In this document: one piece after another, positions 28,536 to 50,442 of the stretch
How positions within the stretch are numbered: the stretch's first letter is position 1
Layout: every line of letters begins with the position of its first letter
Source of the DNA: Catalimonadaceae bacterium JC749
GTDB taxonomy: Bacteria; Bacteroidota; Bacteroidia; Cytophagales; Cyclobacteriaceae
Assembly (NCBI GenBank): GCA_021730635.1
Contig: JAJNNC010000004.1
Span: 248,001-312,000, forward strand
Length of the DNA stretch: 64,000 nucleotides
Reading direction: 5' to 3'
Notes under the pieces: generated by a model
Database searches by the model: none
Seen by the model: the letters and a program-made list of their open reading frames with translations, nothing else
Told to the model about the DNA's origin: nothing
Position numbers and translations under genes: made by a program

Positions 28536-29183
28536 ATGTCACTGATTCCTTCGCTTTCCAATCGGGAAAAGATTATTCTTTCTTTTCTGGTGCTGTTGGT
28601 TTTGCTGAACGGCCTGACTATCCTTGTCTCCAGAAATCTTTCCGGATTTTCTTACTCATTTCAGTCCATGCTGGAGGATAGGCTCATTCCTTCTTCAGAT
28701 CTGTCTAAAATCAGGGAAGAATTTTACAAGAACAGGCTTTATCTGGAAGAAATGATTTTCCTGCCTGAGTGGAGGGATTTAAATTTAATGCAGAAAATCC
28801 TGGTCAACAATCAGGAAATCAATCAGATCCTGATGAAATACTCGAAGACGTCCCTGACAAGCATTGAAGCGGCTTCCCTGGAAAAATTCAACCGGCAACT
28901 GGAGGATTACCGCTCCTTAGAGCAGCAGGTTATCAATTTTGTGGAGCACGACAGCCTGGAAAAGGCCCGCCTTCTGTTTCTGGCGCAAAGCATGACGGCC
29001 TTTGAAAATCTGCTGGTGACCATGCGGGATTTAAATAATATTCAGGTGCAGGAGGGAGCCTCCTTGTATCACAAATCAGAAAAAATGGTCAATACCATTC
29101 AAATGATTGCTTATTTCAGTATTGCCTTGGCTTTGATGATCACCGTGAATATGCTGAAAGTATTACGCTTTAGAATCAAGTAA
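28536..29183 (+). CDS. Membrane protein with a four-helix-bundle MCP-type sensor domain, no output domain
   Basis: This 215-residue protein has an N-terminal membrane helix (I-I-L-S-F-L-V-L-L-V-L-L-N-G-L-T, about residues 13-33). About 155 helical residues follow (35-190) with the charge and leucine spacing of the 4HB_MCP ligand-binding bundle. A second membrane helix comes near the end (M-I-A-Y-F-S-I-A-L-A-L-M-I-T-V), then a short basic tail. It lacks any HAMP, kinase or methyl-accepting domain. It is set between parE (13 bases) and parC (12 bases), so it is co-transcribed with topoisomerase IV. The role is unknown; the bundle assignment is by pattern only. Confidence 0.75.
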   Translation: MSLIPSLSNREKIILSFLVLLVLLNGLTILVSRNLSGFSYSFQSMLEDRLIPSSDLSKIREEFYKNRLYLEEMIFLPEWRDLNLMQKILVNNQEINQILMKYSKTSLTSIEAASLEKFNRQLEDYRSLEQQVINFVEHDSLEKARLLFLAQSMTAFENLLVTMRDLNNIQVQEGASLYHKSEKMVNTIQMIAYFSIALALMITVNMLKVLRFRIK

Positions 29184-32252: not shown

Positions 32253-33491
32253 ATGACAAGCAGGAAAAGGAAAGGATTTATCTCATATGCACATCAGGAT
32301 GAAGTTTATAGTAATTTATTAATCAGAGGGCTGAAAGCTCAATTAAAACATTCTCCCATTATAGACTCTCATCTTTGGACAGATCATTTGATCCCATTGG
32401 GAAGCCATTGGCATCAGGTGATACAAAAGGAAGTAAAAGAATGTGATTTTGCCATTTTGCTGGTCAGTGCCCATTTTTTTGAATCAGAGTATATAGGAGC
32501 ACATGAAATGGCTCAGTTCCTTCAAAGAAATGAAGAAAATGGATTTATATTCTTTCCCATCTATCTGAATTACTGTCGGTTTGATCAATGGCCCGCCCTG
32601 GCAGAGAAACAAATGTTTATGGGAAAGGGAGAAGCGTATGGTCTCCCTGCCAAAGAAGTCATCACCTATGCGGATCTGGTTAGTTTCACTTCAGCGGGTG
32701 TACCCATTCCCAATGCCTTCAGAGAAAAATACCATATGGATTTGGCGGAAAAGTTGGAAACCGCCTTATCACCTCCTCTGGCCAGGGAGGAAACAAAAGG
32801 GCAGGAGTTGACAACATCAAAAAAGAAAGAGGAGGCCCTGAAAAAGAGCTTTTTTCAGCTTTTTGAAAGTAAACGATGGCTATCTACAAATAAAATCATG
32901 CTGCTGGGAGGGTTGGGTATCCTGACCGCTTGCCTTTATATCTTCCTGGGACATGGGTTGCTATTTACCCATAAACCCGGGGAGTTTCCGCTCACCATCT
33001 ACATCCACGGCCCGGCTGGTGTTAGTGATATACTGGATTATGGGGAGGTCAGCGTCCGCCTGGGACAATACCGACTGGCCAAAGAAGAGGTGGATGACCG
33101 TGGTCAGGTTCATTTTGAAGGCATCCCTACTACTTATCTTAACGACTCTGTGCAATTAGAACTTTTATCCAGGCCATATACTATCCTGGAGCAGAGCGCC
33201 TATACTCCGCAGGAAAGTAAGCGGATCACCTTCGTGGTACAACCCACCCACCTACAGCTGCGGGGAACCGTGCTGAACCAGGGACAGCGTATTGCAGGCG
33301 CTATTGTAGATTTTGATAGTGGTACAGCCCTTGACACCACAGATAGTCGGGGCAACTTTCACCTGACGCTTCCAAAAGGGGAAGGTGATTTTGCTGACGT
33401 AAGCATCACCTATCAGGGTAAAGAAAGGTTCCGCAGGAGGGTTACCTTGAGTGAAAAACAACTACTAACATTAACACTGGATCCTATATGA
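32253..33491 (+). CDS. TIR-domain membrane protein with extracytoplasmic beta-sandwich
   Basis: A 412-residue protein. Residues 5-150 form a bacterial TIR domain: G-F-I-S-Y-A-H-Q-D (first strand and loop), L-W-T-D (residues 41-44), and D-F-A-I-L-L-V-S. The helix S-E-Y-I-G-A-H-E-M (78-86) places Glu85 where TIR NADases have their catalytic glutamate. A charged linker leads to one membrane helix (about 213-235: I-M-L-L-G-G-L-G-I-L-T-A-C-L-Y-I-F-L-G). Residues 245-412 look like one or two Ig-like/carboxypeptidase-regulatory folds (L-R-G-T-V-L-N-Q-G-Q-R-I-A-G-A ... D-S-R-G-N-F). TIR is predicted in the cytosol and the sandwich in the periplasm. Its stop overlaps the next start by four bases (ATGA). 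Confidence 0.85.
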   Translation: MTSRKRKGFISYAHQDEVYSNLLIRGLKAQLKHSPIIDSHLWTDHLIPLGSHWHQVIQKEVKECDFAILLVSAHFFESEYIGAHEMAQFLQRNEENGFIFFPIYLNYCRFDQWPALAEKQMFMGKGEAYGLPAKEVITYADLVSFTSAGVPIPNAFREKYHMDLAEKLETALSPPLAREETKGQELTTSKKKEEALKKSFFQLFESKRWLSTNKIMLLGGLGILTACLYIFLGHGLLFTHKPGEFPLTIYIHGPAGVSDILDYGEVSVRLGQYRLAKEEVDDRGQVHFEGIPTTYLNDSVQLELLSRPYTILEQSAYTPQESKRITFVVQPTHLQLRGTVLNQGQRIAGAIVDFDSGTALDTTDSRGNFHLTLPKGEGDFADVSITYQGKERFRRRVTLSEKQLLTLTLDPI

Positions 33492-34495
33492 AAACAATAG
33501 TAATATTGATATGGGTCTTTGGGTGCTATGGGCTTTTTGCCCAGGACAATACCTTTCAGATCAGCATACAGATCATAGATCAGGAAACCAAAAAAGGGGT
33601 CGCTGACGTAGGGATGAGTCTGCTCAACCTAGGCGCAGGTACCACAGACAAAGACGGGATGGTGCGAATACCGATTCCACAAGGGACAGAAACCGTAGAA
33701 TTACAAATTGCTAAGGGCTTTGAGATTGTAAATCCTCCCGGCCCGAGGTTGCCCGTACCAGGGAGTACCAATGCGATCTTACAATTTTGGGTAAAAACGG
33801 TCTTTCTAGAAGATATGAAGACAAAAATAGACAGATTGTTAACGGAAAAACGGGAGCTGGAAGGATTAACGGAAAGCCTGAAAACGGAAAATGACCTGCT
33901 TCTGGAGAAGAATAAACACTTAACTTCAGCCCAAACCTCTCTTCAGGATTCTATTCGTCAAATCACGCTTCGAATAGATTCCCTGCAACATAAATTACAG
34001 ACGGTCGGGCGAGAAATTACTGTATATAAACTGGCTATATTCGACAGAATATCAAGGAATTATCACCAGTTTCTCAATGCAATGCTTGATATGGAGATGT
34101 CTTTACGAAATGTTTCCCAGGCTTTCATTCAGGAAGCAGCCCTGCGCCAATTCAACCGACAGGTTGAAAACTTGAATCAGGCCAGAAATGGTATGCATGA
34201 AAACCACCTCTCTTACATAGAAGCAGTAGAAAAATACTGGGACAAGAATACTTCTCTCACATTAAAGAGCCTTTATGACCAGGCATTGCTCAATACGTAT
34301 GGGAAAGTCATCCTGCCATTAAATGAGAAACTGATTGCACGATTGAATGAGGCCTGGAATGGTCATAAACCCAGAATCCTGGTGCAGCGGAAGGCTGTAA
34401 AGAGTACTGAAAAAGCTTTGGTGGGACTTCACCAGGAGTTGGAAGACTTGCAGTTAATTGCCAACGAATTGATGGTCTTACTAAAGGAAACATGA
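33488..34495 (+). CDS. Secreted coiled-coil protein of the TIR operon
   Basis: This 335-residue protein has a signal peptide (residues 1-18, ending G-L-F-A-Q). Next is a carboxypeptidase-regulatory-like beta-sandwich (about 22-105, with K-K-G-V-A-D-V-G-M-S and T-T-D-K-D-G-M-V). A coiled coil follows (about 108-170: T-E-K-R-E-L-E-G-L, E-N-D-L-L-L-E-K-N), then a long helical region to the end. It is probably periplasmic and elongated. It overlaps its neighbours by ATGA on both sides, so all three proteins are made from one message in a fixed ratio. I do not recognise a named family for the helical part. Confidence 0.78.
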   Translation: MKTIVILIWVFGCYGLFAQDNTFQISIQIIDQETKKGVADVGMSLLNLGAGTTDKDGMVRIPIPQGTETVELQIAKGFEIVNPPGPRLPVPGSTNAILQFWVKTVFLEDMKTKIDRLLTEKRELEGLTESLKTENDLLLEKNKHLTSAQTSLQDSIRQITLRIDSLQHKLQTVGREITVYKLAIFDRISRNYHQFLNAMLDMEMSLRNVSQAFIQEAALRQFNRQVENLNQARNGMHENHLSYIEAVEKYWDKNTSLTLKSLYDQALLNTYGKVILPLNEKLIARLNEAWNGHKPRILVQRKAVKSTEKALVGLHQELEDLQLIANELMVLLKET

Positions 34496-35838
34496 AGACG
34501 CCAACCATAGCCTGGGGTCGTCCTCTTCTGCTTATCTCCATGGCTTGCCTTGTTTGGGTGGGGAGTTGTAAAGAGGATAAAACAGACCCTGATCCTATAC
34601 CTGGCTTTACAATCCAGAATGATGGCTGCGAAGCGCCCTGCACAGTAAGTTTCTTCAATACCTCTATGCATGCCACTGCCTTTCAGTGGAACTTCGGTGA
34701 TGGCCAAACTTCCAGTGAAAGGAATCCTGAGCATGCATATACGGCTGCGGGAGCCTATACTGTCGTCCTGACGGCGACATCCCCGGCAGGAGTCAGTGCC
34801 AATACCAGTCAGGAAGTAAACATTCGAGCACCTGGAGCCCCTTTGGCTAGTTTTGAAGCTGACCCAACGGAATGCTTAACCCCTTGCACAGTGACGTTCA
34901 CAAACAACTCACAGGGAGAAATTGATGCCTATGCATGGGATTTTGGGGATGGCACTTTTTCTCAGGAGAAAAATCCACCAGCGCATGTCTACCCAAATCA
35001 GGGAGAATACATTGTGACCTTGACCGTGACCGGTCCGGGAGGAGAACACAGCGATAGTGATCCTGTCTTAGTGAGTACGCCTATCTCCCTGGAAGGAATC
35101 TTTCCCAATAGCAACCCCATAGGAGGGCCTGTGCTCATCCTTGGCGAAGGCTTTACGGAGGACACTGAAATATTTTTTAATAATGTGAAAGCCAATATAG
35201 AAGAACAGGCTGATACTTATCTTACTACCAAAGTACCCCAAGGGATTGGGTTGGGTACGAAGACGGTAAGGGTAGAAAAAGGGATTGAGTCTCAAGAGAT
35301 AGCCTTTGATGTGCTGTCGACTTTTCCGGTCGATCTTCCCATCAGCCCTCCATCTATCGTCATTCCCGCTACAGGTCTATTGATCCCTATCAACTATACG
35401 CTTGAAAGCATAGACAGGATCAGGGTGATGAATGTGTATGACCCGACCCATCGGATAGATCTGATTCTCAGGGTAGATGATATCTATGTGGGAGATACGG
35501 TTTCCAATGAAAAGATAGCCATTCAGGGCACCACATATACTTCCCCGGTAACGTTTGAAGGAGCAGCCTATTTTAGTCTCAGCAACTGTCAGAATCCTGA
35601 AGTACCCTCCATGGAAATCCTGCGGTCAAGTGCTACTCCTGCCGGACATCCCTTCCAGGAGGACCAGCTATCGGGTGCGTTTATCACGATAGGAAATTTT
35701 GAATTCCCTGATAATTTCCCTGAGTCTGTAGAGACTACCCGTAATTTTCTGTTGATGACTTCCACAGTTACCGGCAGGCAATATTTGTTTGTTGTGATTT
35801 GCGCTGATTTTTTCTGTGAAGATGAACTGTGCGGCTAA
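34492..35838 (+). CDS. Surface lipoprotein with two PKD domains and an IPT/TIG-like domain
   Basis: A 448-residue protein with a lipoprotein signal peptide: hydrophobic helix, then lipobox V-G-S-C with Cys27. Two PKD domains follow (about 35-110 and 120-195), each with the hallmark A-W/F-Q-W-N/D-F-G-D-G and ending T-V-x-L-T-A/V. Each is preceded by a C-x3-P-C pair (E-A-P-C, L-T-P-C) likely to form a disulphide. Residues about 200-275 resemble an IPT/TIG fold (G-I-F-P-N-S-N-P-I-G-G-P-V-L-I-L-G-E-G-F). The C-terminal 170 residues are unassigned. PKD domains usually mediate binding outside the cell. It is the third gene of the TIR operon. Confidence 0.82.
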   Translation: MKTPTIAWGRPLLLISMACLVWVGSCKEDKTDPDPIPGFTIQNDGCEAPCTVSFFNTSMHATAFQWNFGDGQTSSERNPEHAYTAAGAYTVVLTATSPAGVSANTSQEVNIRAPGAPLASFEADPTECLTPCTVTFTNNSQGEIDAYAWDFGDGTFSQEKNPPAHVYPNQGEYIVTLTVTGPGGEHSDSDPVLVSTPISLEGIFPNSNPIGGPVLILGEGFTEDTEIFFNNVKANIEEQADTYLTTKVPQGIGLGTKTVRVEKGIESQEIAFDVLSTFPVDLPISPPSIVIPATGLLIPINYTLESIDRIRVMNVYDPTHRIDLILRVDDIYVGDTVSNEKIAIQGTTYTSPVTFEGAAYFSLSNCQNPEVPSMEILRSSATPAGHPFQEDQLSGAFITIGNFEFPDNFPESVETTRNFLLMTSTVTGRQYLFVVICADFFCEDELCG

Positions 35839-35885
35839 AGACGTTAAAGAGAGGTGGGATCATTCCTTCGTTTTTTGACAACTTG

Positions 35886-36917
35886 TTAAGGGGGGATAGC
35901 CCCGGCGGATTGTCTGAGTGATTTCGGAATCCAGTGGTACCGTACACCCAGGCTTATACCATACCAGCTTCTGGCGACCACTTCACTGGAAGCACTCTCA
36001 GAACCATAAGCGACTGGCTGTTGTGCCCAAAGCGTGAGGCCCCACCGAGGTTCTAACTGGGCAAGCAGACCCAGGCCCACTTGTAACTCAAATGATCTTT
36101 TCACAAGCCATTCTTCTCCCCGGGTGTTGTCGTCATAGACGATGGCATAGGACCAGGAGAAAAGCCCATACACTTTGGGATACGCCCTGGCACGAAGGCC
36201 TACTAACTGGGCAGAAGTATAAAAAAATAGAGGAAAACTAAAAGTGTTATTCTGAAAATCGTCATTCTTCAAGAAAACGGAAACATCCGTTTGAACAAAA
36301 GCATAGAGCCATGGGCGAAAACGTTGGTAGAATGTCATCTGCCCCAGCAACTGGGTACGATCTCTTCCATACAGCTGTCGGGTTGTCAAATCTTTGCTCA
36401 ATCCGAATACAGCAGACCCTTGTACGGATAATTCAGGCAGAAAGACAAAAGGCATCCACCGTATTCTGGGCCCTATGGCCGAAATACTACGCTGGCTTTG
36501 GCCACTGCTCTGTTGATTCCCCAACACACGGAGGGGAGAACTGTGGATATCCTCGTCTGTCCGTAAGTGCGTGGCATAAAGGTCTAAGCCAAGGTTAAGT
36601 CTTCGGCCGGCAGGTAACCCATATTGAAGCTGGAGCCTCTGTTCCAGACGGGTCGATTGAAAAAAACTGATCGTCGTATCCGGATTACCAGAGAATGAAG
36701 TTTTGGTGATTCTGATATTCTTTATATCCCTGGTTGTCAGAAAATTAAATAGATTAACTTCCCATTGACGTTCACCAACCAGCATGGCAGACAAAGAAGG
36801 GCTCACGATCATTTCTTGCTCTTTTGTCTCAAGTAGAACGGTTTGTAGGGTAGAATCCGTTTGCGCCATGAGCCAAGCAGGCAGGAAAAGTATAAAAAGC
36901 ATTGGATATTTTGTCAT
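35886..36917 (-). CDS. Predicted outer-membrane beta-barrel protein
   Basis: A 343-residue protein from the ATG at 36915-36917, with a signal peptide M-T-K-Y-P-M-L-F-I-L-F-L-P-A-W-L-M-A-Q. Amphipathic strands alternate with R/D-rich turns across the whole length (for example L-N-L-G-L-D-L-Y-A-T and W-Y-G-I-S-L-G-V-R-Y), as in porin-like barrels. I know no specific family. Its stop faces that of the PKD lipoprotein gene across 47 bases, so it may be a partner on its own promoter. A longer frame to 37001 would add 28 residues before the signal peptide and is rejected. Confidence 0.7.
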   Translation of the reverse strand: MTKYPMLFILFLPAWLMAQTDSTLQTVLLETKEQEMIVSPSLSAMLVGERQWEVNLFNFLTTRDIKNIRITKTSFSGNPDTTISFFQSTRLEQRLQLQYGLPAGRRLNLGLDLYATHLRTDEDIHSSPLRVLGNQQSSGQSQRSISAIGPRIRWMPFVFLPELSVQGSAVFGLSKDLTTRQLYGRDRTQLLGQMTFYQRFRPWLYAFVQTDVSVFLKNDDFQNNTFSFPLFFYTSAQLVGLRARAYPKVYGLFSWSYAIVYDDNTRGEEWLVKRSFELQVGLGLLAQLEPRWGLTLWAQQPVAYGSESASSEVVARSWYGISLGVRYHWIPKSLRQSAGAIPP

Positions 36918-37555
36918 GGTCCATGAGTAATTGAAACTCACTTTGCTTTTAGCGATGGTAAAACGGCATGGTTGGCAAAGTTTGTATTGCTGAGGTGCCA
37001 TAGCCTTTTACCAAATCAGATTATCGTGCTATCGATCGGGAATCTGCTGATAATCAGTATAAGTCTTATAAAATATTACATAAGGTGCCTGGGATGCTGA
37101 GCATACCTCTCAGGAAAATGCAAGAGCGGTTTCTCTATTACAAATTAAGCATAAACCGGGAATAATGCTACGGAAAAGCGAAAGTCTGGCTGTGCCCTTT
37201 ACTAAAAGAGGCTCCTGTCTCATCTCTGAAAGTACAATGAGGCGGGCCCTTATAAGTTTCGGCTTTTAAGATCAATAGGTCAACGATATGGTAAAACCTA
37301 AAGCACCAAAAACCATGATAAGCGAGTCTTTCTCATAATGAGAGGATATTTCTTTTATAGACTAAACAAACGTTTAAATCTGATTTGCGTAAAGTGTAAA
37401 AAAGAGACAAACAACACTTTGGTAGATGATTTGCTAGATAATGTTGTATTTGAATTGTGCCGGATATGGTAAAAATAGTATAAAAAATGTTTGGAATAAT
37501 TATATCCAAATCTTACCTTGTGGAGAATTATTAAAATCTACTTTTTTTATTTTTT
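36918..37555. other. Long intergenic region between divergent genes
   Basis: No credible coding frame. Two short perfect dyads occur (CTGAT-A-ATCAG at 37047-37057; TCTCAT-A-ATGAGA at 37331-37343). The right half is A/T-rich and carries a promoter-like pair at 37518-37546. Nothing else is recognisable. Confidence 0.5.
37518..37546 (+). promoter_or_regulatory. Candidate promoter of the SAF-domain dehydrogenase gene
   Basis: TTG at 37518-37520 and TACTTTTT at 37539-37546 are 18 bases apart; the last base departs from TAnnTTTG. The start point would fall within about 5 bases of the ATG at 37556, giving an almost leaderless message. Confidence 0.4.
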
Positions 37556-41446: not shown

Positions 41447-42886
41447 TCAGAGCTGGTTAAAAGAAGCCTGGTGAAAGTCTATAAGAAAAAGGGATTGGGT
41501 GGCACGGGTAAAAGCAGTATACAACCACCGGAGGGTATCGGAAGAAAGGGGCGTGTTTTTCAGGTAACCGGGATCTATGAAAACGACCGGCCATTGTCCC
41601 CCCTGGGCCTTATGGCAGGTAAGGGCATAGGCAAACTTGATCTGAAGAGCATTGAGGTAAGCATCTTTCCGGATAGATTTTAGCTGTCGCGAACGTTGCG
41701 GAATGAGATGGTAGTCTACCGCTACCGCCTCATACAAACTCTTATTGTCTTCAGAGGAAAGCGTAGGCAGGTGGCTGTGTAGGGTATCGAGCATCACTTT
41801 GCTCTCAAACATCTTTTGCTTGGGATAGTCGGGCAACCGTAGCAGCAGATCGGCAAACCGGAAACCGTAACATGTTTCACTGTTTAATACTTCTACCACC
41901 TCTGCAAATTCTCCGTTAGCCAGGAAGCCCACACGGCTGCTCTTGGGTAATACCCGGTAGTTGTTTCTTACGATCATCACCAGGTCACCGGCCTCAATCT
42001 CAGATTGACGGTGTAGGATCTCTTTTCTGACCAGCTGGTTGTATTGTGTTGCTTCCTGGTTGGAGGGGCAGATGATAAGGGTGTTGTTGAGTCCATACCG
42101 CAGATAGGCATAACTTAACCCTTCCTGTAAACGGGAAGACAGCATGCGGTAGATATCAGGGTATTCCCTGGTATCCAGAGCCAGGGCTGGCTTGCGTTGC
42201 GCTATCTGTTGCCGCAGCCGGGTTGCATTTTCCAATATTCCACTTTCCTGGTGGTGCCGGACAACCTCTGTGAGCTGGTGCTCAAATACCTGCAATGCGT
42301 ATACCATCTGGAGCATTTCTCCACTCAGGGCGAAGCTCAGATCCTGGCCTACCGGTGGTAACTGGGCCGTGTCGCCGATGAAAATAAGCTTGTTTGTAGG
42401 GTGTTCATAGATATACTCAATCAGATCAGTAAGCAGGTTCTCCTGACCCAGATCATTTTCATGACTGATCATAGAAGCTTCATCGACAATATAAACCGTA
42501 TGATGCTGGTAGTTTTTTCTCCGCTTGAACTGAATATTTCCTGAAAAAGGGTTTTGTACCTGCTTGTATATCTGCCGGTGGATAGTGTAGGCCTTTCGTT
42601 TGGTATACTGAGAGATCACTTTTGCAGCTCGACCCGTTGGAGCCAGTAATACAGCACGATACTGTAGTTTCCTTAAAGCTTTGGTTAAGGCTTTGATCAC
42701 CGTCGTCTTTCCCGTACCCGCATACCCCTTCAAAATGAAGACTGATCTTTCCTGATGGTTTGTCTGTAGAAAATGACTCAGCTTTTCAAAAAGGAGCATC
42801 TGGTCTGCAGTAGGGATAAAAGGAAAATTCCTTTGTAATAAAGTGAGCGCATCTTCCGATGGATCCATAGGCATAGTGTAAGGCAC
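41447..42886 (-). CDS. RecD-like ATP-dependent DNA helicase (SF1)
   Basis: This 479-residue superfamily 1 helicase has Walker A L-K-G-Y-A-G-T-G-K-T-T (about residues 51-61) and Walker B V-Y-I-V-D-E-A-S-M. Motif III is G-D-T-A-Q-L-P-P-V-G, motif V-like T-C-H-K-A-Q-G-G-Q-W, and motif VI L-Y-T-A-F-T-R-A. It lacks the long N-terminal extension of RecD2 and stands alone, so it belongs to the short RecD-like/Pif1-like group of Bacteroidota. It unwinds DNA 5' to 3' by family analogy. The start may be the first ATG or M5. Confidence 0.88.
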   Translation of the reverse strand: MPYTMPMDPSEDALTLLQRNFPFIPTADQMLLFEKLSHFLQTNHQERSVFILKGYAGTGKTTVIKALTKALRKLQYRAVLLAPTGRAAKVISQYTKRKAYTIHRQIYKQVQNPFSGNIQFKRRKNYQHHTVYIVDEASMISHENDLGQENLLTDLIEYIYEHPTNKLIFIGDTAQLPPVGQDLSFALSGEMLQMVYALQVFEHQLTEVVRHHQESGILENATRLRQQIAQRKPALALDTREYPDIYRMLSSRLQEGLSYAYLRYGLNNTLIICPSNQEATQYNQLVRKEILHRQSEIEAGDLVMIVRNNYRVLPKSSRVGFLANGEFAEVVEVLNSETCYGFRFADLLLRLPDYPKQKMFESKVMLDTLHSHLPTLSSEDNKSLYEAVAVDYHLIPQRSRQLKSIRKDAYLNALQIKFAYALTCHKAQGGQWPVVFIDPGYLKNTPLSSDTLRWLYTAFTRATQSLFLIDFHQASFNQL

Positions 42887-49818: not shown

Positions 49819-50138
49819 TTATATATTCTCAATTTCTTTCTTCAACTTGGGTAAATATCTTTTCAGAATTGTCCAGACGATAGCATTGTCAATTTTATCA
49901 TAAGCATGAACTAAGCGATTTCTGAAGGCAACTATTTGCTTATCATTTTCAATCAGAATTTCAGGTTCAGCTTTTCGGAATTTATTCAGTGCTTCACCAA
50001 TAATTGCCAATTGCCTCTCAGTGGCACTTTGCGTTTTTGGGTCAGCTTTGTATGCACTAAAATCAGGTGTATCTTGAATGAATTTTTCAATCAATGCAAT
50101 AAAATATCAGATAAGTACTTTTTGCCTCTTTCCGTCAT
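49819..50138 (-). pseudogene. HepT-like HEPN toxin (DUF86), frame broken near the N terminus
   Basis: The intact part (91 residues, 49819-50094) carries the HEPN RNase motif R-N-R-L-V-H-A-Y (R-x4-H), preceded by I-I-G-E-A-L-N-K-F and D-P-K-T-Q-S-A. The family N terminus is found in another frame: ATG at 50136-50138 reads M-T-E-R-G-K-K-Y-L-S-D-I-L-L, then hits TGA at 50091-50093. One base (and probably two codons) is missing at about 50095-50100. The intact frame alone could restart only at TTG 50094 and would lack helix 1. It lies directly behind its MNT partner. A sequencing error is the main alternative to true decay. Confidence 0.7.
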
Positions 50139-50442
50139 AAATTGATATTTTAGTAGCCTCAATATGTTTTTTCAGAATGGGGTTTTGAATAGAAGCCTCT
50201 GTTAACAGATCTACCTTTCTATGAAAAAATTCTTCAAACTTGTCCCAAAGTGACATTAATTTCTCTCCGCGTTCAATAGGGTCTTCCTCATCAATGTCTA
50301 CCAGAAGATCTATATCGCTTGTTTGTTCATTAAACTGCTCTGTCACTGATGAGCCGAAGGCATACAGGGATTTCACCTTATGTGTCTGACATAAAATTAA
50401 AAAGGCATGAATGTGGTCATGAATTACTTCTTGCAGTTTCAT
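50107..50442 (-). CDS. MNT-family nucleotidyltransferase (antitoxin of an MNT/HepT pair)
   Basis: A 111-residue minimal nucleotidyltransferase with the active-site motif Y-A-F-G-S-S-V-T-E-Q and S-D-I-D-L-L-V-D-I (G-S-x-D-x-D pattern). MNT proteins neutralise HepT by adding AMP groups to a tyrosine of the toxin. The HEPN motif here ends R-N-R-L-V-H-A-Y, so the target tyrosine of the family is present. It precedes and overlaps hepT by 32 bases. A toxin with a damaged frame would leave this antitoxin without a job. Confidence 0.85.
   Translation of the reverse strand: MKLQEVIHDHIHAFLILCQTHKVKSLYAFGSSVTEQFNEQTSDIDLLVDIDEEDPIERGEKLMSLWDKFEEFFHRKVDLLTEASIQNPILKKHIEATKISIYDGKRQKVLI

Follow-up and report, generated by a model that had tools for sequence, protein, structure and literature searches.

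How might an event at the surface of a diderm bacterium reach a TIR domain in the cytosol? The question is raised by four neighbouring genes in a stretch of 64,000 nucleotides from Catalimonadaceae bacterium JC749 (GCA_021730635.1, contig JAJNNC010000004.1, 248,001-312,000), here called the window, whose own positions are used throughout. Three open reading frames (ORFs) on the plus strand, at 32253-33491, 33488-34495 and 34492-35838, encode an inner-membrane protein with a TIR head, a coiled-coil protein and a lipoprotein, and a fourth, convergent ORF on the minus strand (35886-37001, open to 37001, with an ATG at 36917) encodes a protein resembling an outer-membrane barrel. An earlier note on this DNA, made from the letters alone, had read the first three genes as a candidate trans-envelope system, and as a whole that interpretation is partly supported. 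The envelope-spanning set itself is strongly supported, both by the order inner-membrane protein, coil protein, lipoprotein in 14 of 15 named loci elsewhere and by barrel genes in four further loci. Since relatives of the membrane half lack the TIR, the latter appears to have been joined to an older cassette in which a cytosolic domain is mostly missing.

The gene set in the window

Both junctions between the three plus-strand genes consist of a 4-base overlap, as the earlier note had it and as the ORF list and the sequence confirm. Profiles built without the window were run against its 180 ORFs, and the inner-membrane profile (6.5e-32), the coil profile (7.8e-35) and the barrel profile (2.6e-11) each had a sole match at E<=1. 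The gene set is thus beyond chance, each window-free profile singling out its one ORF.

The first gene (32253..33491, plus strand) encodes 412 amino acids. Its TIR_2 domain comprises residues 9-121 (32277..32615) and includes E85 (codon 32505-32507), and a hydropathy scan gives one hydrophobic segment, residues 215-233 (32895..32951), in agreement with the single membrane helix noted earlier. Because the TIR precedes a lysine-rich stretch and this one transmembrane helix, the head is predicted to lie in the cytosol. The part beyond the helix that profile searches find in common with a TIR-less cassette family (32970..33476) would be periplasmic and holds two sandwich-like domains, at residues about 240-333 and 335-408. 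The second resembles CarboxypepD_reg at 23.8 bits, under the cut-off of 32.3; the periplasmic sandwich of the earlier note leans on this sub-threshold match, and we regard the fold of both domains as putative.

Directly downstream lies the gene of the coil protein (33488..34495, plus strand, 335 amino acids), in which we read an N-terminal signal, a sandwich-like domain, a coiled coil and a conserved C-terminal helical domain with an invariant Trp251, here named the YW domain. Pfam yields only sub-threshold matches for this protein. When the window was left out of the YW profile, its domain scored 57.1 bits against 4.9 for the best of 200 shuffles, and seven other members left out likewise scored 59-126 bits against 2.8-10.5 for shuffles.

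The third product, a lipoprotein of 448 amino acids (34492..35838, plus strand), contains two PKD domains (PKD_4, over two stretches) and a TIG/IPT domain, all above Pfam cut-offs, and by reading a lipobox that ends at C27, all of which bears out the earlier description; KED follows the Cys. Its C-terminal part has no Pfam match. This PKD/TIG type of lipoprotein is unlike the small type found in most cassettes.

The earlier note had mentioned the convergent barrel gene (35886..36917, minus strand, within the ORF open to 37001) as a neighbour; it now turns out to be a member. Barrel genes of this kind occur in five loci, namely the window, L022, L097, L098 and L102, and when each was searched with a profile of the other four it was the top match of its locus (window 3.2e-21, L022 6.9e-9, L097 1.7e-19, L098 5.3e-7, L102 2.2e-27), the best shuffles shown being 0.12 or worse with 200 for each. 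On this homology the gene at 35886-36917 belongs with the three at 32253-35838. The window protein matches no Pfam family above cut-off and no solved structure, and the barrel nature of this protein and its relatives is a prediction made by reading.

A TIR-less cassette in other genomes

We regard as the core of the cassette an inner-membrane protein with two sandwich-like domains, a coil protein and a lipoprotein, for which we found no established name; the gene set was likewise not found described in the open-licence literature searched, which is no proof of absence. A search of 395 genomes of the phylum with the membrane and periplasmic parts of the TIR protein gave clear relatives in G444, G218 and G136. 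Weak matches at five loci (L014-L018, E 2.5e-4 to 8.8e-4) were dropped, four of them resembling TonB receptors, as was a partial match in a 3715-residue frame of G110 (1.7e-5). An alignment of four inner-membrane proteins, scanned against 84,980 species, produced 28 pattern matches and among them 15 relatives, all with record titles (the named loci, which include those of G444, G218 and G953). Together with the window, L022, L021 (G136), L122 (G130) and L123 (G069) these make 20 family members. The samples of the separate searches overlap, and counts hold for each search.

The coil gene follows the inner-membrane gene directly in 14 of the 15 named loci, the spacing ranging, on our choice of start codons, from -8 to +7 bp. 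The sole exception, L109 of the Phycisphaerae, has a next protein with a related N-terminus but with TPRs. Leaving the window aside, a coil gene adjoins in 15 of 19 members and is missing beside four (L021, L109, L122 and L123), so that the partnership assumed by the earlier note meets with a mixed result. The four exceptions, and the fact that our sample holds no second TIR-headed copy, are what might be said for a mere chance neighbourhood, in which the TIR-membrane gene would have nothing to do with the genes downstream; the 15 adjoining coil genes, the 4-base overlaps in the window and the gene order argue against it, and we consider such an accident scarcely credible.

The third gene of the 14 named cassettes has, by reading, a lipoprotein N-terminus, the protein being small in 13 and of the TIG type in one. 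A profile of the 13 small lipoproteins finds the third genes of L087 (2.7e-21) and L088 (1e-21), both outside its training set; the C-termini of the lipoproteins align too poorly for a claim of homology. The layout of the window, without the TIR, recurs in Algoriphagus antarcticus (L102), where an inner-membrane protein, a coil protein and a TIG lipoprotein are followed by a convergent barrel gene, detected at 1.1e-26 by a profile not trained on this locus. In L022 (G002), from a genome of the same family, all four genes share one strand, the inner-membrane protein again having no TIR and the lipoprotein being of the TIG type. The cassette is present in Bacteroidota and Ignavibacteriota.

The window protein lacks the stretch RSxARYSG...LxLxGP that, along with three transmembrane helices, was counted among the marks of the cassette's inner-membrane protein; the stretch lies outside the shared periplasmic region and from which L022 also deviates. 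Three observations on single family members may be added. The protein of L021 (6742-8769), with no coil gene after it, has an extended N-terminus similar to HEAT repeats (23.5 bits, under the cut-off of 27.7); in L122 (4802-7152) the TIR-less inner-membrane protein is followed by a different barrel-like protein of 496 amino acids with no Pfam family; and the cassette of L101 (4715-8634) has a GAF-SpoIIE phosphatase just upstream and, by reading, a small two-helix membrane protein just downstream.

From the side of the coil protein, a search of 98 relatives found one further genome, G002. The full-length coil profile (A1) matched in 94 of 395 and in 224 of 390 genomes, only the best five candidates per genome being scored, so that true matches may be lost. 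Most of the A1 matches listed covered the N-terminal, carboxypeptidase-regulatory-like part only, in ORFs of TonB-receptor size, and were set aside, judged by position; short ones also occurred elsewhere, for example in G200, G342 and G476. Retained were those over the C-terminal half: besides the genome's own, G444, G218, G152 and G343 in the first search and G002 and G651 in the second. A C-terminal profile (A3) was then run on 395 genomes of the class, and weak partial matches in G071 and G478 were dropped. Against the 84,980 species, with exact 8-residue patterns only, the coil protein had 42 pattern matches and no relative, and it was absent among the plasmid records searched. The YW domain was counted in 21 loci (the window, L022, 14 named loci, L087, L088, L089, L097 and L098). 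In a tree of 20 of these 21 domains the window sits on a long branch whose placement is unsupported, and we therefore make no claim about the nearest relative of its YW domain.

Catalysis and origin of the TIR head

The TIR head scores 44.2 bits with TIR_2 against a Pfam cut-off of 28, and E85, the residue the earlier note had placed at the NADase position, is invariant in seven aligned TIRs. In profile alignments its column coincides with the Glu of the solved TIRs 7xoz, 7uxr and 7uwg, and the window's TIR profile matches solved chains including AbTIR (8g83), 7xoz and 3h16. The catalytic Glu is E85 in ThsB and E208 in AbTir (PMC10022894). Cleavage of nicotinamide adenine dinucleotide (NAD) by the window TIR is what these residues would predict.

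One might then suppose a Thoeris-like arrangement, with the envelope parts as sensor and the TIR making a cyclic adenosine diphosphate (ADP)-ribose signal to which an effector from another place in the genome would respond. The best PADLOC match of the TIR protein is indeed ThsB1/ThsB (48 bits, 2.3e-13, model positions 5-107 of 319). The Pfam family ThsB_TIR, however, gives 20.5 bits, under its cut-off of 21.2, and no ThsA model matched among the 10 neighbouring ORFs, the remainder of the genome not having been searched for ThsA. We hold this arrangement to be improbable.

Where the head came from is suggested, if not settled, by its composition and its nearest kin. The GC content at third codon positions (GC3) is 0.395 in the TIR head (residues 1-195) against 0.484 in the remainder of the gene. 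Among the other genes of the window, 67 comparable segments average 0.497 (sd 0.038), and the lowest of them is at 0.426. The nearest TIR found is that of a Roc-COR-TIR protein encoded in the same genome (L002, G000:C1:127395-130931), with 41.8% identity, six others showing 29-33%. The TIR part of this second gene is also low in GC3, at 0.408 against 0.478 in its Roc-COR part, which tells against a simple story of recent capture: TIRs of this type may as such be low in GC3, and the value is no proof of a recent fusion. The values of both TIRs are compatible with a common source as well as with a property of the domain.

A second full-length homologue of the TIR protein was not found in 98 genomes at E<=1e-5. 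A viral scan with the TIR protein gave three pattern matches and no relative, and one with the TIR alignment gave 82 pattern matches and one distant TIR; a plasmid search found TIR domains in eight records. It should be kept in mind that the scan of 84,980 species with the inner-membrane alignment requires one short motif of the membrane region that is absent from the window protein itself, so that TIR-headed relatives like it would be missed, which weakens any claim that such heads are rare.

Sensor, machine or immune receptor

The reading we favour, tentatively and with a little less than even confidence, is that the four genes make one assembly, a trans-envelope sensor in which the TIR answers an event at the surface. 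The lipoprotein with its Ig-like domains, at the surface or outer membrane, would join the barrel, the periplasmic coil protein and the inner-membrane protein, whose sandwiches would face the coil. The older core of the cassette would usually end at the inner membrane, and in this lineage a TIR, probably of the Roc-COR-TIR kind, would have been fused to it on the cytosolic side. Binding of a ligand or damage at the surface, with phage adsorption or envelope injury as the best candidates, would serve as trigger; the signal would pass through the periplasmic parts, the inner-membrane proteins would cluster, and the clustered TIRs might come together and either cleave NAD+ or produce cyclic ADP-ribose as a signal, resulting in growth stop or cell death. 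The complex, the direction of signalling from surface to TIR and a role against phage are thus all proposals made from genes and domains.

Several findings weigh against this sensor. The TIR occurs in only one of the 20 family members, that of the window (Pfam run on all 20), and in the 14 named cassettes no cytosolic domain was recognised on the inner-membrane protein; from this absence the ancestral job of the cassette was probably not NAD cleavage, and a role in defence should not be taken for granted for the cassette as such. Most of the family have three transmembrane helices, against one in the window protein. Beside the four members without an adjoining coil gene, there are five of the 21 coil loci (L087, L088, L089, L097 and L098) in which no protein is recognisable as belonging to the inner-membrane family. 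The proteins of L101, L102 and L098 that were run through PADLOC gave no match. In the window, the 5' neighbours are the subunits of topoisomerase IV, and PADLOC, run on 10 neighbours, found no known defence island among them, returning a RecD-like helicase (PDC-M16A, 378 bits) and weak matches in a 1341-residue protein (best 7.8e-5). As to the outermost part, the best-tested lipoprotein export signal, that of Capnocytophaga, is C-X-K-(D/E)2, with its best position one residue further on (PMC5080379) than the K-E-D of the window protein, which begins at +2. Since C-KED resembles that signal yet is offset from it, surface exposure of the lipoprotein is plausible only.

Alternatively, the cassette might be an envelope machine with a structural or transport function, concerned with lipoprotein placement, outer-membrane tethering or uptake, and the TIR on it a head that regulates or scaffolds and does not cleave NAD. 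In favour of this, 13 of the 15 named loci combine an inner-membrane gene and a coil gene with that of a small lipoprotein, the membrane protein carries no effector there, and the genes around them look mostly ordinary by reading; some neighbours are common across genera, as in L105 and L111; and G130 pairs its inner-membrane protein with a different barrel-like protein. The retention of E85 and the surrounding TIR motifs speaks against such a machine, as does the company that related parts keep in G1089, where they adjoin EAD11, caspase and trypsin domains. We find it doubtful, and less probable than the sensor.

In one locus of G1089 (L098, 7424-11523) a coil protein, a lipoprotein and a convergent barrel are accompanied by an EAD11 protein with, by reading, a transmembrane segment, that is, outer parts as in the window with a different cytosolic domain. 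In the other (L097, 6668-14369) a trypsin-YW fusion is followed by a barrel, a TIG lipoprotein, an unknown protein and a caspase protein with a transmembrane segment by reading, with an nSTAND1-WD40 gene upstream. Neither membrane protein is recognisable as a member of the inner-membrane family. Elsewhere, L089 carries a caspase-domain protein along with two TIG proteins on the opposite strand, CHASE2 lying downstream; in L087 (3185-8461) and L088 (2661-8743), from one genus, the coil/small-lipoprotein cassette converges with TPR-S and patatin genes, and the coil gene is preceded by that of a short membrane protein, which goes unrecognised by the inner-membrane profile, homology not being claimed. 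L022 lies near AAA_15 and DEAD helicase genes. A DUF4231/SLATT gene is also present in L088. The larger proposal that these loci could suggest, an undescribed class of trans-envelope immune receptor in which a relay of outer-membrane, periplasmic and inner-membrane parts carries lineage-specific outputs of the death type (TIR here; EAD11, caspase and trypsin in G1089), seems to us rather unlikely. PADLOC had no match at E<=0.001 for the coil proteins, the barrel and the TIR-less membrane proteins tested, the window coil protein having one weak LmuB match (E 0.098).

The cassette is accessory. Neither the TIR nor the coil protein has a match in a genome of the same genus (G001, 95% complete), whose topoisomerase IV genes and the block found downstream of the cassette in the window lie on different contigs, with other neighbours; the cassette thus stands between blocks that G001 has in separate places. 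Further observations on the neighbourhood are that a gene with a 4HB_MCP_1 sensory module (28536-29183) stands between the two topoisomerase IV genes of the window, these being adjacent in G001 (L130) with 61 bp between ORFs; that the RecD-like helicase (41447-42886) is probably an ordinary helicase; and that a small nucleotidyltransferase (50107-50442; Polbeta and NTase-conflict above cut-off) falls within the kilobase that has the lowest GC content in the window (0.36).

With the bacterial TIR NADases (ThsB of Thoeris, AbTir, TIR-APAZ/SPARTA and TIR-STING) the window TIR shares TIR_2, the column of the catalytic Glu and the matches to solved TIRs, and it differs from them in its predicted membrane anchor and its predicted periplasmic and outer-membrane partners. 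The TIRs of ThsB, AbTir, SPARTA and TIR-STING are cytosolic or paired with cytosolic sensors. To our knowledge, known TIR sensors act inside the cell. Bacterial TIR-based systems reportedly sense phage capsids (PMC12578639). Kiwa (KwaA/KwaB) couples a membrane sensor of phage attachment to a cytosolic effector, but none of the four window proteins had a Kwa match in PADLOC and the domains differ. Animal Toll-like receptors join extracellular sensing to a cytosolic TIR across the membrane; they do so with one protein in one membrane rather than four proteins and two membranes, and no leucine-rich repeat matched in the window, so that this is an analogy only. ZorAB of Zorya forms a complex in the inner membrane that reaches into the periplasm and brings about a response in the cytosol (PMC11890865), a likeness to the set proposed here; ZorAB, however, resembles ion-driven rotary motors and binds peptidoglycan, whereas the window set has outer-membrane parts, and none of the four proteins had a Zorya match in PADLOC at E<=1. 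Among the effectors of nucleoside triphosphate-dependent conflict systems in multicellular bacteria are TIR and caspase-like domains (PMC7159879), and the EAD11, caspase, trypsin and nSTAND1-WD40 domains at the relatives in G1089 recall these systems; the window has only the TIR of these, and the passages concerned describe systems centred on vWA or GTPase domains, with no outer-membrane set.

The sensor proposed here bears on how bacterial effectors of the TIR and caspase type learn of an attack: if it is real, an event at the outer membrane alone could trigger loss of NAD before DNA entry in diderm bacteria. The cassette offers a concrete candidate complex of four proteins in which this may be studied, with the TIR-less cassettes, that of Algoriphagus antarcticus among them, as a natural control.

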